64,000 bases of DNA from Pseudanabaena frigida. Its GTDB lineage: Bacteria; Cyanobacteriota; Cyanobacteriia; Pseudanabaenales; Pseudanabaenaceae. A program made the position numbers and the translations under genes. Under the pieces are notes generated by a model that saw only the letters and a list, made by a program, of their open reading frames with translations, ran no database searches and was not told where the DNA came from. Each line of letters begins with the position of its first letter. Positions within the stretch are counted from its first letter, which is position 1. The stretch is taken from positions 1 through 64,000 of the forward strand of contig QBML01000006.1 in the NCBI GenBank assembly GCA_003242085.1. Reading direction: 5' to 3'. Below are positions 7,986-55,007 of the stretch, piece by piece.

Positions 7986-8092
7986 AGCTCCTTCCTTGTT
8001 ACTGTTGAAAACTTGACAGCCTATCTAGTATATGACAATTCTGCTAAAAATCTTGATTAAATTATGCAAAGTAGCTAGGCGCAATTAAATAT

Positions 8093-8147
8093 AAAACCCA
8101 AAAGCCTGTGGCGCACGCTGCGCGTGCGCCACAGGCTTTTGGGTTTT
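8093..8147. repeat. Palindrome, 26-bp perfect arms, GC-TGC-GC apex
   Basis: Arms 8093-8118 and 8122-8147 pair perfectly around a 3-nt loop. Outer ends are AAAACCCAAAAG / CTTTTGGGTTTT. With the next palindrome it fills most of the 351 bp between rpsD and the SLOG gene, where I see no other gene. The rpsD promoter must lie here too. Confidence 0.95.
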
Positions 8148-8171
8148 AATTATGTCCATATACGTAAGTTC

Positions 8172-10547: not shown

Positions 10548-10604
10548 AACCCAGAAAATTTTTAAAAGTGTTGCTTCGCAACACTTTTAAAAATTTTCTG
10601 GGTT
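10548..10604. repeat. Palindrome, 27-bp perfect arms, GC-TTC-GC apex
   Basis: Arms 10548-10574 and 10578-10604, 3-nt loop TTC. Outer end AACCCAGAAAATT. The stem closely resembles that of the palindrome at 11551. It lies between two convergent genes and may also end transcription. Confidence 0.95.
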
Positions 10605-20152: not shown

Positions 20153-20434
20153 CAGCAATTCTCATTATAAAAGTCAGTTTTTTGAAAGCTAGCCTACGGT
20201 TGACTTTCAAAAAACCGATTTTGTTGTTTTTAGCGCCGTAGGTAATGTGAGTTCGGGATAATTTAAAACGGGCTTTGAGAGAGGGTTTGCGTAGCAAACC
20301 CTCTCTCAAAGCCCAGAAGCAAAAGCATTGCGTAGCAATGCTTTTGCTTCTGGGCTTATAAAATTTGTAAGCTTAACCCGAACTCACGTTAGGTAATAAA
20401 GACAACCAAATCAGTTTTATAACGAGAATTGCTG
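20153..20434. mobile_element. Composite MITE-like element A with nested inverted repeats
   Basis: Outer 20-bp inverted ends CAGCAATTCTC(A/G)TTATAAAA at 20153-20172 and 20415-20434. An inner pair carries GTGAGTTCGGGWTAA (about 20246 and 20375-20393). Inside lie two perfect hairpins: 20270-20314 (21-bp arms, loop GTA) and 20311-20355 (21-bp arms, loop GTA), which share the GCCC between them. A weaker hairpin lies at about 20180-20216. There is no transposase, so it would be non-autonomous. It is related to the element at 39291-39560. Confidence 0.85.
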
Positions 20435-26737: not shown

Positions 26738-26794
26738 AACCGAGAAGGATTTTAAGAGCGTTGCTTTGCAACGCTCTTAAAATCCTTCTCGGTT
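26738..26794. repeat. Palindrome, 27-bp perfect arms, GC-TTT-GC apex
   Basis: Arms 26738-26764 and 26768-26794; outer end AACCGAGAAGG. Right flank GGGCGCAAAGCGTTGC resembles that at 11606. It lies just after the cyclase gene and could terminate it. Confidence 0.95.
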
Positions 26795-28941: not shown

Positions 28942-29065
28942 CTAACCCAAGTTCTATAGTCTAAAAACTCCAAAATCTGGATATGTCAGGGTTTGAATAT
29001 AAATATAGCGATCCCCAACCATAGTATCGGAAATATCTCATTCAATTAGGGACGTACAGTAAAGT

Positions 29066-29122
29066 AAAGAACCAGATTTTTGGTGGCGCGGCTTTGCCGC
29101 GCCACCAAAAATCTGGTTCTTT
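29066..29122. repeat. Palindrome, 27-bp perfect arms, GC-TTT-GC apex
   Basis: Arms 29066-29092 and 29096-29122 around TTT; outer end AAAGAACCAGAT. It lies in the 324-bp gap between gap1 and the 29227 gene, divergent promoters on both sides; I see nothing else there. Confidence 0.96.
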
Positions 29123-29226
29123 ATTAAATTGCAGAAACATTAGTACTTTAGTTAAGCATTAGTTTAAAGGGAAATTGTTTAGTTTAAAGTTGGTACATCT
29201 TAATTTTTTGGATTAGGGTTACTTAT

Positions 29227-38393: not shown

Positions 38394-39146
38394 TTAGCTA
38401 GATTCTCCAGAATCATCGCTAGGGACATTTTCGGGTGATGCACTATCGCCATCAATTTTACCTGAAGATACCTTAACCAGCGAATGACGTAAGACGCGAT
38501 CATCACTAACTAGGTAGCCTGGGCGCAGTTCTTCAGTAATTATGCCTTCGTCATATTCAGTCGAAGGTTCCTGCATAATTGCTTCATGGAAATTTGGATC
38601 AAATTCTTGACCGACACACTCCATCCTCGCTACGCCAGTTTCTTTCAGGCATTTCAGTAATTGTTTGTAAACTGACTGATAACTTTTGTGAATTGAAGCT
38701 TCACCATCTGTCTTCGGTGAAATCTGCAACTGGGCGCGCTCAAAGTCATCAACTACAGGCAATATTTTTTTGAGAATTTTGCCTGTAATCGTACCTTCTT
38801 GCTCTTCCTTATCACGCTCAGTACGCTTGCGAAAATTCTCGAAATCGGCATATAGACGCAAGTATTGTTGCTTGCGATCATCTAACTGCTCTTTGAGGGC
38901 TGTTGACTCAGCGATCAAACCATTAATTTTTTCAAGTGTTGCGGCTGCGGCTGCATTGGCTTTACTAGTTTCGGGCTTAGGACTATCTGTGGTGACAGAT
39001 GGCTGAGCACCATTAGCTTTTGCCTCCTCTTGATTTGCGATTTGATTCAAGTCTTCAGTTGCAAGTTGTTGTAACCGTGACTCAAGAACCTCATCATCTT
39101 CATCGATGAGGTCGTCAGAACTTAATATGTTTTCTTCTTCGATCAT
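38394..39146 (-). CDS. grpE: Nucleotide exchange factor GrpE
   Basis: A 250-residue partner that releases ADP from DnaK. The N-terminal 85 residues are acidic and low in complexity. A long coiled coil follows (INGLIAESTALKEQLDDRKQ), then the conserved head DFENFRKRTERDKEEQEG, LPVVDDFERA, and ECVGQEFDPNFHEAIMQEPS. The C-terminal beta domain reads ILRPGYLVSDDRVLRHSLV-like. The first gene of a grpE-dnaK unit. Upstream is the composite repeat at 39291-39560. Confidence 0.96.
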   Translation of the reverse strand: MIEEENILSSDDLIDEDDEVLESRLQQLATEDLNQIANQEEAKANGAQPSVTTDSPKPETSKANAAAAATLEKINGLIAESTALKEQLDDRKQQYLRLYADFENFRKRTERDKEEQEGTITGKILKKILPVVDDFERAQLQISPKTDGEASIHKSYQSVYKQLLKCLKETGVARMECVGQEFDPNFHEAIMQEPSTEYDEGIITEELRPGYLVSDDRVLRHSLVKVSSGKIDGDSASPENVPSDDSGESS

Positions 39147-39290
39147 TGCGTTAATACTCTTTTCGCGCTTTTCAGACTAGCAGTTAATTGATAAGAGTTG
39201 ACATTTGAGTGTTAGTTTTGACGATTTTTTGCCAATCACAACGATTTTACTCTTTATCTGGGTCAACGTAAATTCGATCTTGAGTGTTTC

Positions 39291-39560
39291 CGCAATTCTC
39301 ATTGTGAAACTGATTTTGTTATTTCTAGTGCCTACGGCGTTGAAAACGACTTTTGAAAGCCAGTCTAAGGCTGGCTTTTTTCTCAGTTTTGATCTGCCCA
39401 AAAATTACTTAACCTCAGTTCGGGTTAATTTCAAACTAGCTCCTAGAGAGGGTTCGCGCCGCGAACCCTCTCTAGGAGCTAAAACAGTAAAAACCTCGCG
39501 AAGCGAGGTTTTTACTGTTTTAGCTTTTAAAATTTTGTAGTTTATCCCGAACTCACGTTA
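39291..39560. mobile_element. Composite MITE-like element B, related to element A
   Basis: The left end GCAATTCTCATTGTGAAACTGATTT matches, inverted, the right end of element A. An inner inverted pair carries CAGTTCGGGTTAA (about 39415-39427) and TTTATCCCGAACTCACGTTA (about 39541-39560). Two perfect hairpins lie inside: 39437-39481 (21-bp arms, loop GCC) and 39477-39525 (23-bp arms, loop GAA), sharing AGCTA. The matching outer right end GAGAATTGC is not seen. Occupies most of the 433-bp gap upstream of grpE. Confidence 0.82.
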
Positions 39561-39579
39561 CTTAGAGATCGCCGCAATT

Positions 39580-41508
39580 TTAAAGACCACAATTGAGAGT
39601 TGATTTTGTAGAATTACCACCGTCAGTTGTGCTGCCAGAGGCTAAGGAACAAAAATATTTACGAGTATTAGGAGCAAGATTTACAACATTTGTGAAATCT
39701 GCCGACTCGATGCTGCCGATATTTTCGACGATCGTGTTGCGAAAATTTGCACCATTAAGGCTTGTGCCTGCTAACTCGACCAAAATTAGCTTGGCGGCAG
39801 TCAGGTTTGCTGTACTTAGATTTACGTTTGAAAGATTGGTTAAGTGCATCTCAGCCGATCGCAAATCTGCTAAAGATAAATCTGCCCCTTCTAAAATGGC
39901 ATCACTAAGATTTGCCGCGCTTAAGTTGCTTTCTCGGAGATTTGCTTTACCTAGATTCGCTTTACGTAGGTTCGCTAAAACTAAGTTTGCGCCGTTTAGA
40001 TTTGCTGAAGTGAAATCAGCTTCGCTAAGATTGCTCTTCATTAATTCCACTTTTTGCAAAATTGCTGAGACTAGCTTTGCTTGAAACAAGTTAACGCGCA
40101 ATAAATTAGCCTGAGTTAAATTTGCTTCCGAAAGATTAGAAAATGATAGATTTGCGTCAGTTAGGTTGGCATTGGTAAGATCTGCTCCTCTTAAATCGAC
40201 TTTAACGATTTTTACACCAGTTAAATTTGCGTTTTTTAGAACTATCTGTCTTAAGTCAATACGTTCTATAACTGAGCCACTCAGATTAATATTTTTAAAA
40301 TCTTGCGCCTGTAAACGCTGGCCTGGAGAGCCTATCAACTGAATATAGCGAAAATCTCGCTGACCTTCAGCGTATTTAGTAAGTAAGCTTGCGGCTGTAG
40401 TCGGGATTAATTTTGGAGTTGGTGAAACACTGGGAGATGGGGAATTGGTTGGTGTTGGAGTACTTACAGTCGTAGTTTCAGAAGCTTTAGTGACTATAGG
40501 TTGAGGCGGTAATTGATTTTTTTTTAACAACCAAACAATGCCACTAACAATAGCTAATACAACTATTCCAAATAATAAAAATGACTGAGTGGTAATTCCA
40601 GATTTTGAGTTGCGTTTTTTTGCTTCAGGCTGTTTGTTCTGTTCTTTACCGTGACAGCGGCGGATCAAGCGATCGCATAGCTCGCGAGTTTCATCATCAG
40701 GGATATTCGCGATCGACTGAAACACAGGTGATAACTCAGGTTCTTGGAAATCGTTTTGTCTAAAAATCAAATTTTTGTTGTCTTCATGGAAGGTTTCCCA
40801 AAGATTAGGCTGACTGGCTAGAGCCCGAAGCGATAAGGATATTACCTCAAAGGAAAATTCATCCAGCCGATCGCCAAAGTCCTTAGGCGATCGCATCGGT
40901 GGTTGATAGTTGGGATGCCCTACCTCAAGGGGTGGAGCTCCTTGCAATGCTGGAACATACATACCGTCATAGTCAACCAGTTTCAGTTCGCCCTGATTGT
41001 CTACCATGATGTTCCCATGCTGTAGATCGCCATGAGCGATGCCCTCCTGTTGTAAATCTTTTTGCAGCTGCTTTAATTGCCGATCTAAACGCAACAAAAC
41101 CTGAGAATCATCAATGTATTCGCCAATATATCTATCTAGTTCCGATCCTTCTACCCAATCCATTTTTAGGACTGGATACCATTCTCCTTTCACCAAAATT
41201 CCTTGAGCTAGATATTCAAAATCAACTAGATAAGGTATTTTGTGATGGCTTAAATATTCACTAATTAATCTATAGCGTTGTTGAACATCTGATTGCGGTA
41301 TGCGTGTAAAGCAGCGTACAGCCCAAGAGCGATTCCCATTGGTTAGTTTGTAGACAGTAGCAAAGTTTCCCGACCATAGCAAAACCCTTCCCCGCGAATT
41401 TTTAGCCGTATTTGCTTGTTTAAGTTCAGAATCAGCAAAGCACAGTTGCGGATTTTGCACCGCAATTGTGAAATCAATATTTAACGGCCAAGTCTGGATA
41501 TCTATCAT
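39580..41508 (-). CDS. Ser/Thr-kinase-like protein with membrane segment and pentapeptide repeats
   Basis: A 642-residue protein. Residues about 40-290 form a compact kinase-like domain: a P-loop-like VLLWSGNFATVYKL, a Lys in RSWAVRCF, the catalytic loop IAHGDLQHGNIMVD (about 157-170) and VDYDGMYVP in place of DFG. This is the lineage with HGDL/DYDG found in TerY-P-like kinases. One membrane segment at about 305-325 (LLFGIVVLAIVSGIVWLL) and a Pro/Thr/Ser linker precede about forty pentapeptides (ANLTGVKIVKVDLRGADL...) to the end, which should be outside the cytosol. The start overlaps the phosphatase gene by 4 bp (ATGA). Confidence 0.85.
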   Translation of the reverse strand: MIDIQTWPLNIDFTIAVQNPQLCFADSELKQANTAKNSRGRVLLWSGNFATVYKLTNGNRSWAVRCFTRIPQSDVQQRYRLISEYLSHHKIPYLVDFEYLAQGILVKGEWYPVLKMDWVEGSELDRYIGEYIDDSQVLLRLDRQLKQLQKDLQQEGIAHGDLQHGNIMVDNQGELKLVDYDGMYVPALQGAPPLEVGHPNYQPPMRSPKDFGDRLDEFSFEVISLSLRALASQPNLWETFHEDNKNLIFRQNDFQEPELSPVFQSIANIPDDETRELCDRLIRRCHGKEQNKQPEAKKRNSKSGITTQSFLLFGIVVLAIVSGIVWLLKKNQLPPQPIVTKASETTTVSTPTPTNSPSPSVSPTPKLIPTTAASLLTKYAEGQRDFRYIQLIGSPGQRLQAQDFKNINLSGSVIERIDLRQIVLKNANLTGVKIVKVDLRGADLTNANLTDANLSFSNLSEANLTQANLLRVNLFQAKLVSAILQKVELMKSNLSEADFTSANLNGANLVLANLRKANLGKANLRESNLSAANLSDAILEGADLSLADLRSAEMHLTNLSNVNLSTANLTAAKLILVELAGTSLNGANFRNTIVENIGSIESADFTNVVNLAPNTRKYFCSLASGSTTDGGNSTKSTLNCGL

Positions 41509-44208: not shown

Positions 44209-45600
44209 CTACTTATCGAGTGCAGGCATCGAGAGTACAGCTTCAGACTCACGGTCAATACCCTTTTCAAAGCCAGCAACAGCCGCGCGAGCACGACCAG
44301 CGTGCCATAGGTGACCAACTAAGAACATGAAGGACAATACGAAGTGAGAGGTAGACAACCAAGAACGAGGAGATACAAAGTTTACCGCGTTGATTTCAGT
44401 AATAACACCACCAACTGAGTTCAAAGAACCCAAAGGAGCGTGAGTCATGTACTCAGCAGCGCGACGTACTTGCCAAGGCTGAACGTCATTCTTGAGTTTG
44501 TCGATATCTAATCCGCTAGGACCACGAAGAGGCTCTAACCAAGGACCACGGAAATCCCAGAAACGCATGGTTTCACCACCAAAGATGATTTCTCCTGAAG
44601 GAGAACGCATGAGGTACTTACCTAGACCAGTTGGACCTTGAGAAGTTGCAATGTTTGCACCCAACTTTTGGTCGCGAACGAGGTATGTGAAAGCTTGAGA
44701 CTGAGAAGCTTCAGCGCCAGTAGGACCAAAGAACTCACTAGGATAAACAGTATTGTTAAACCATACGAAGCAAGTAGCAATAAAAGCCATCAAGCTCAAA
44801 GCACCAAGGCTGTAGGAGAGATATGCTTCACCAGACCAGACCAAAGCACGTCTTGCCCAGCCGAAGGGTTTGGTTAGAATATGCCAGATACCACCACTAA
44901 TGCAGATTAAACCGATCCAAATATGTCCGCCAACTACGTCTTCGAGGTTGTCAACACCAACGATGTTGCCTTCGCCGCCAAAGGGTGAGTTTAGCAAATA
45001 GCCAAAGATGACAACAGGGTTAATCGTAGGGTTGGTGATTACACGTACATCGCCACCACCAGGTGCCCATGTATCATAGAGACCGCCAAAGAACATTGCC
45101 TTGAATACGAGAAGGAGTGCACCAAAGCCCAACAAAATCAGGTGATACCCGATGATGTTAGTCATTTGGTTTTTGTCTTTCCAGTCGTAACCAAAGAAAG
45201 AAGAATAGTTTTCTAAAACTTCAGGTCCGCGCAATGCATGGTATATACCACCAAAGCCAAGTACAGCCGAAGAAATGAGGTGCAAAACGCCAACTACGAA
45301 GTATGGGAATACATCAACAACTTCTCCACCAGCGCCAACACCCCAACCTTGAGTTGCGAGGTGAGGTAGTAGGATGAAGCCCTGCTCGTACATTGGTTTT
45401 TCGGGAACAAAATGAGCGACTTCAAACAAAGTCATCGCGCCAGCCCAGAATACAATCAAACCAGCATGAGCAACGTGAGCGCCCAGCAGTTTGCCAGAAA
45501 GGTTAATGAGTCGAGCATTACCAGACCACCAAGCAAATCCTGATGAATCTTGCGTACGCCCACCCACTCCTAGCGAGTTTAAGTTAATGGTCGTCGTCAC
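44209..45600 (-). CDS. psbC: Photosystem II CP43 chlorophyll-binding protein
   Basis: A 463-residue inner antenna of photosystem II with six membrane helices, binding about 13 chlorophylls, and with a large lumenal loop between helices 5 and 6 that contributes Glu and Arg near the Mn4CaO5 cluster ([14 protein letters not shown]). The core [20 protein letters not shown] and [19 protein letters not shown] are canonical. The start is GTG, as in many psbC genes, with GGAG about 12 bases upstream. It does not overlap psbD; the spacer is 217 bp. Confidence 0.99.
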
Positions 45601-54950: not shown

Positions 54951-55007
54951 TAAAACCCAAATAAATAGAGGTGGCGCGAAGCGCCACCTCTATTTATTTG
55001 GGTTTTA
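54951..55007. repeat. Palindrome, 27-bp perfect arms, GC-GAA-GC apex
   Basis: Arms 54951-54977 and 54981-55007 around GAA. Outer ends TAAAACCCAAATAAAT. Flanks GCTTAGGATA on the left and GTTTGTCCTAGCT on the right form a longer imperfect inverted repeat. The clearest full copy of the family. Confidence 0.96.

Follow-up and report, generated by a model that had tools for sequence, protein, structure and literature searches.

Twin hairpins of IS982-derived MITEs in Pseudanabaena are probably kept perfect by replicational rewriting of their arms

Replicational template switching, with its two signatures of arm homogenisation and spacer inversion, is known from phages, E. coli and yeast. At the inverted repeats of yeast, exact spacer inversion and arm homogenisation have been described as products of this process, and spacer inversion was seen only at arms over 9 bp, which was explained by an intermolecular switch (PMC8604942). 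RNA hairpins, too, have been proposed to arise and persist through template switching (PMC8794818), and small inversions of plastid genomes have been attributed to hairpins (Kelchner and Wendel 1996, as cited in PMC12371153).

The hairpins that we describe here in Pseudanabaena resemble the quasipalindromes of the Ripley model, as studied in E. coli and yeast (PMC8604942, PMC8794818, PMC7202029), in arm homogenisation and exact spacer inversion, in a minimum arm length of about 10 bp, and in the preference for perfect arms and short spacers. Unlike those cases, they are found across several species of a single bacterial genus, with a density of about 26-38 hairpins per 100 kb, and their loop orientation is effectively randomised, near saturation, at 0.6% divergence. 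With the minute inversions at chloroplast hairpins (Kelchner and Wendel 1996, in the account given by PMC12371153) they share small loop inversions between inverted repeats, whereas here the organisms are free-living cyanobacteria, the loops mostly have 3 bases, and the arms change together as well.

As mobile DNA, the element studied here is close to the IS982 family and its derived MITEs, with terminal repeats of the type AACGTGAGTTCGGG..., target duplications of 4-6 bp, multiple copies and no transposase of its own, but its interior consists of two overlapping perfect hairpins that share 5-6 bases. REP/REPIN sequences with their RAYT are likewise short intergenic palindromes in paired arrangement; however, they are mobilised by a Y1 transposase and have neither terminal inverted repeats (TIRs) nor target-site duplications (TSDs), and the DDE-type IS982 TIRs and the TSDs found here speak against such an assignment.

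Elements A and B as IS982-type MITEs

The window, i.e. the whole stretch of 64,000 nucleotides of P. frigida DNA that was analysed, contains two such elements, A and B, with the following features:

39411..39559, + strand: element B, a 149-bp IS982-type MITE with terminal inverted repeats AACCTCAGTTCGGGTTAA / TTATCCCGAACTCACGTT, identical to the TIRs of autonomous IS982 elements
39407..39410: left target-site duplication of element B, ACTT
39560..39563: right target-site duplication of element B, ACTT
39437..39481: hairpin 1 of element B, 22-bp perfect arms, 1-nt centre
39477..39525: hairpin 2 of element B, 23-bp perfect arms, loop GAA at 39500-39502
39477..39481: AGCTA, the 5 bases common to hairpins 1 and 2 of element B
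20244..20390, + strand: element A, 147 bp, the other subfamily of the same MITE
20240-20243 and 20391-20394: target-site duplications of element A, AGGT
20270..20314: hairpin 1 of element A, 21-bp perfect arms, loop GTA
20309..20357: hairpin 2 of element A, 23-bp perfect arms, loop GTA

The first-pass annotation of this DNA had described a twin-hairpin plan common to A and B, and both hairpins were indeed located, with perfect arms, in each element; the paired difference that it gave for hairpin 1 (TTTGC/GCAAA in A, TTCGC/GCGAA in B) is also correct. Its overlap of four or five bases holds for B, where 5 are shared, but A shares 6 (AAGCCC). The interval 39291-39560, which it had treated as a unit, is too wide, since element B comprises only 39411-39559 plus the 4-bp target duplication, and we rejected 39291-39406 as element B sequence because it lies outside this duplication.

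The MITE is short (147-149 bp) and non-coding, with about 11 copies in the P. frigida genome and dozens in relatives. Its ends occur 11-13 times in the P. frigida genome and are present in 36 of the 97 genomes searched. Among 64 copies scored for target-site duplications, 28 have exactly 4 bp and about 11 more have 5 or 6 bp, the others being unreadable; two copies are truncated (L001, L022). Complete autonomous IS982 copies of 985 bp were found in related Pseudanabaena genomes (L217:476-1460 and L218:1436-2420), where ends identical to those of the MITE, AACGTGAGTTCGGG/CCCGAACTCACGTT, surround the IS982 transposase, and in G096 (L039) the stretch between MITE-type ends encodes a 297-aa IS982 transposase (NF033520, E 1.2e-73). 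A and B are thus non-autonomous copies of an IS982 insertion sequence of Pseudanabaena. The identical ends, together with the target-site duplications, suggest that both were once mobilised by an IS982 transposase through the terminal repeats that they share with the autonomous element. In the P. frigida genome no IS982 transposase exceeded the curated cut-off (best match 46 bits vs 130), and the copies there therefore look stranded without an autonomous partner, although a partner in the same genome is not a strict requirement for a MITE.

A and B represent two subfamilies of one element, each common to several species: A-type copies are present in G004, G014, G023 and G025, and B-type copies in G005, G012 and G022. 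In the orthologous spacer of G009 element B is absent and another hairpin stands in its place. A second MITE of 207 bp, with the same IS982 ends and an unrelated interior, was also noticed (L028:1499-1705 and L058).

Element A itself lies within another terminal-repeat element (window 20155-20432), a nested insertion. The ends of the enclosing element read GCAATTCTC[AG]TTATAAAA on both sides, with 6 matches in the P. frigida genome, and the sequence at 39291-39406 (GCAATTCTCATTGTGAAA...) resembles one of its ends. An Rfam scan of the window gave only IsrR and a tRNA at gathering score, and nothing at the MITE; the IsrR antisense RNA lies at 44997-45183 on the + strand (RF01419, 176.9 bits).

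Covariation of the stems and inversion of the loops

We aligned 60 MITE copies, 40 of A-type and 20 of B-type. In this alignment the homology of hairpin 2 between the subfamilies is plain from the consensuses, AGTAAAAGCCTTGC for A and AGTAAAAGCCTCGC for B, so that the 'entirely different' arms reported from the window reflect an impression gained from two diverged copies. Stem cells are paired in 99.1% of cases in subfamily A and in 97.6% in subfamily B. The covariation analysis that the first-pass annotation had proposed was strongly positive in both subfamilies. In the A-type copies 19 of 38 pairs have changed on both sides, as compared with a shuffled mean of 5.9, and in the B-type copies 9 pairs, as compared with 2.5; in neither subfamily did any of 500 shuffles reach the observed values. 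The A-type signal was lost when the partner was slid by one base. Of its 25 distinct compensated states, 15 are transversions, which cannot pass through G-U, and 10 are transitions.

The arm-to-arm comparison, suggested at the same time, gave for subfamily A a divergence of 9-13% between copies against a mismatch of 2-5% within copies, many of the mismatches falling on edge bases that are contested by both hairpins. Decayed stems at the same divergence, which had been named as evidence against maintenance of the stem, were found in a few copies, such as the second P. frigida B copy (L021/L002), which has mismatches in both hairpins; a few of them are to be expected if repair is probabilistic.

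We then compared hairpins of all families, not only those of MITEs, between the close genomes G023 and G025, which are 0.63% apart over 330 kb. In 44 of the 134 hairpins the loop, or an inner segment somewhat longer than the loop, is inverted between the two genomes, the outer arms having changed little or not at all. Among perfect hairpins with arms of at least 14 bp and 3-nt loops, the loop is exactly inverted in 30-31 of 52 (TAC<->GTA, TTC<->GAA), orientations being read from assemblies, of which that of G025 is a metagenome-assembled genome (MAG) whose orientation could be the assembler's choice in a mixed population. The value of 31/52 (60%, 95% CI 45-73%, at 0.5-0.6% divergence) is indistinguishable from full randomisation of loop orientation, and counts of this kind are not fully independent because the hairpins belong to repeat families.

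Inversion has an arm-length threshold. On arms of 7-10 bp, none of the 135 loops that could be scored as kept or inverted is inverted, while inversion at arms of 14-17 bp (palindromes of 31-37 bp) is as common as at longer ones (6/11). Perfect arms matter as well, with 41 of 100 perfect-arm hairpins inverted against 3 of 25 imperfect-arm ones (p = 0.009). The second pair, G021 (8 contigs) and G002 (1 contig), is 6.5% apart, and 40 of its 97 hairpins were set aside for gaps; arms of at least 14 bp with 3-nt loops gave 18 inverted and 12 same, and arms of 7-10 bp gave 0 inverted and 105 same. For perfect 3-nt-loop hairpins, exact spacer inversion amounted to 31/52 and 15/25. An E. coli control pair, MG1655 and REL606, had 1 hairpin of this class in 50 kb, too few to compare.

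Inversion is also seen in loops whose sequences are unrelated and whose lengths range from 1 to 7 bases, and at CC-closed tips, and several unrelated hairpin families show the phenomenon, in which arm length and perfection matter and sequence does not. The MITE transposase is consequently not responsible, and since perfect hairpins of all families in these genomes show the same inversion, it is a property of DNA shape, not of the MITE. Some inversions carry internal arm mismatches along (L158:19702, L164:3220).

Among the 2561 stem pairs of G023/G025, 20 single changes were counted and 10 pairs are compensated. From the flank divergence of 0.53% one would expect about 27 mutations and 0.02 compensated pairs, as opposed to the 30 events and 10 doubles observed. 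Stem mutations therefore arrive at the flank rate, a near-neutral supply, and about a third of them are found on both arms, as predicted by copying between arms and not by purifying selection. Together with the loop inversion of about half of the perfect hairpins at a divergence of 0.6%, this result from close genomes favours the second half of the earlier proposal of 'selection on, or active renewal of, the stem rather than its sequence'.

All 7 orthologous MITE pairs compared have one or two loop inversions; beyond these, they differ in one compensated pair, at columns 33/63, and in single bases at columns 67, 68 and 70, within the stretch that both hairpins share. Orthologous copies at fixed sites have changed in both arms (L088/L107). 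Column 68 belongs to both hairpins, and its base can be read together with its two partners, in the order hairpin-1 partner, shared base, hairpin-2 partner. Most copies have G-C-G here; T-C-G, T-A-G and T-A-T are found in the others, and the step between T-C-G and T-A-G separates the orthologues L085 and L050. The triples read as one substitution passing through three arms, in a putative order of steps.

Template switching as the proposed route, and its alternatives

Considering all the above results, we believe that these IS982 MITEs are best explained as having hairpins that are probably kept perfect by repeated replicational rewriting of their arms. The data suggest a copying process that rewrites one arm from the other and flips the loop, so that stems stay perfect while their sequence drifts; a function of the stems is probably not under selection. 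Template switching fits as the molecular route, by analogy, both signatures matching its known products. During replication of an inverted repeat whose arms reach about 11-14 bp or more, the nascent strand would change template, copy the other arm and then return. If it changed to the opposite parental strand, the loop would end up inverted, and a switch across a mutated pair would copy the mutation to the partner arm or remove it. Where two hairpins share bases, one substitution could spread through three arms.

Alternatively, selection might act on the stems in RNA form, as terminators, processing sites or stable leaders, with compensatory pairs arising by ordinary two-step mutation. The strong covariation in both subfamilies speaks for this, and the position of the hairpins in intergenic DNA, denser between convergent and tandem than between divergent genes, is terminator-like. 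However, the mutation supply of the stems equals that of the flanks (30 vs 27), which implies that little is removed by selection, and transversions, which have no G-U route, make up the majority of the distinct compensated changes in subfamily A, with 23 G-T and 13 A-C among 2338 cells. RNA selection does not predict exact loop inversion, and a consensus scan counting stems of up to 20 pairs found no intrinsic terminator (GC stem followed directly by a T run) in 39140-39640, the surroundings of element B. We thus regard RNA selection as unlikely, and it is not needed to explain the hairpins. Very improbable, in turn, is that the stems seem perfect only because the copies transposed recently. 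It is true that MITEs multiply in bursts and that numerous copies are almost identical, but the arms of subfamily A are 9-13% apart between copies, well above the mismatch within copies even with the contested edge bases included, the changes are paired, and fixed-site orthologues such as L088/L107 have changed in both arms.

Two further explanations concern the loops. Assemblers or amplification may pick an orientation at random at palindromes, which would give the near 50:50 ratio and to which a MAG such as G025, one genome of our best pair, could be prone. Against such an artefact, which we judge quite unlikely, arms of 14-17 bp invert equally often although their palindromes are far below the usual read length, inversion recurs between G021 and G002 with their 8 contigs and 1 contig, and the same events have been described in yeast strains (PMC8604942); moreover, a choice of loop cannot produce arm co-changes or copied mismatches. 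We likewise give little credence to a site-specific recombinase, or a cruciform-cutting enzyme, inverting the loops at GC-NNN-GC tips. The inversion rate is very high, and the tips of three-base loops are GC-closed in 48/52 cases in G025/G023 and in 55/59 in the P. frigida genome, where 35/59 are GNA or its complement; yet 1- to 7-base loops of unrelated sequence and CC-closed tips also invert, inverted tracts can reach beyond arm mismatches, and the co-change of the arms would be left unexplained.

Tips of the d(GCGAAGC) type are extraordinarily stable DNA mini-hairpins. The loop-tip bias fits a DNA hairpin as the active species of the rewriting process, or may come from common descent of the hairpin families.

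Compensatory stem changes are routinely accepted as proof that an RNA is functional. In Pseudanabaena a copying process at the DNA level appears to yield the same covariation signal in transposon debris, at many sites and with loop orientation as a direct read-out, which is a warning against claims made from covariation only in hairpin-rich genomes. Loop inversion also offers a natural assay of template switching. With 60% inverted (95% CI 45-73%) at 0.5-0.6% divergence, and assuming a symmetric two-state model, its rate exceeds that of substitution per base by a factor of at least about 100. At bases common to two hairpins, single substitutions are seen at successive steps through three arms.

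Hairpin load of the genomes

The window holds 23 hairpins of this class, as compared with 0 in each of five Markov shuffles, and GAGAGGGTT occurs 5 times with 0.42 expected. Extrapolation from the 26-38 hairpins per 100 kb gives about 1,500-2,000 per genome. Loss of SbcD or exonuclease VII was considered as the cause of this high number; both (SbcD, and the large subunit XseA) are present throughout the genus, so their absence does not explain the rate.

A bolder proposal, possible but doubtful, is that all perfect hairpins of Pseudanabaena, from an arm length of about 14 bp upwards, flip rapidly between two states, so often that cells of one culture would differ. Such flipping would be coupled to cruciforms or forks and would far outpace the rates of template switching known from measurements in E. 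coli or yeast; the large number of hairpins in the genome would be a by-product of this renewal.

Hairpins per kb amount to 2.3 between convergent, 1.4 between tandem and 0.8 between divergent genes in G023, and to 2.1, 2.0 and 0.2, respectively, in G021. This convergent and tandem excess may mean that some hairpins act as terminators or are tolerated there. Many perfect hairpins of other families, with arms of 23-28 bp and 3-nt loops, were observed as well, nearly all of them intergenic (e.g. window 8092-8148, 10548-10604, 26738-26794, 29065-29123 and 54951-55007).
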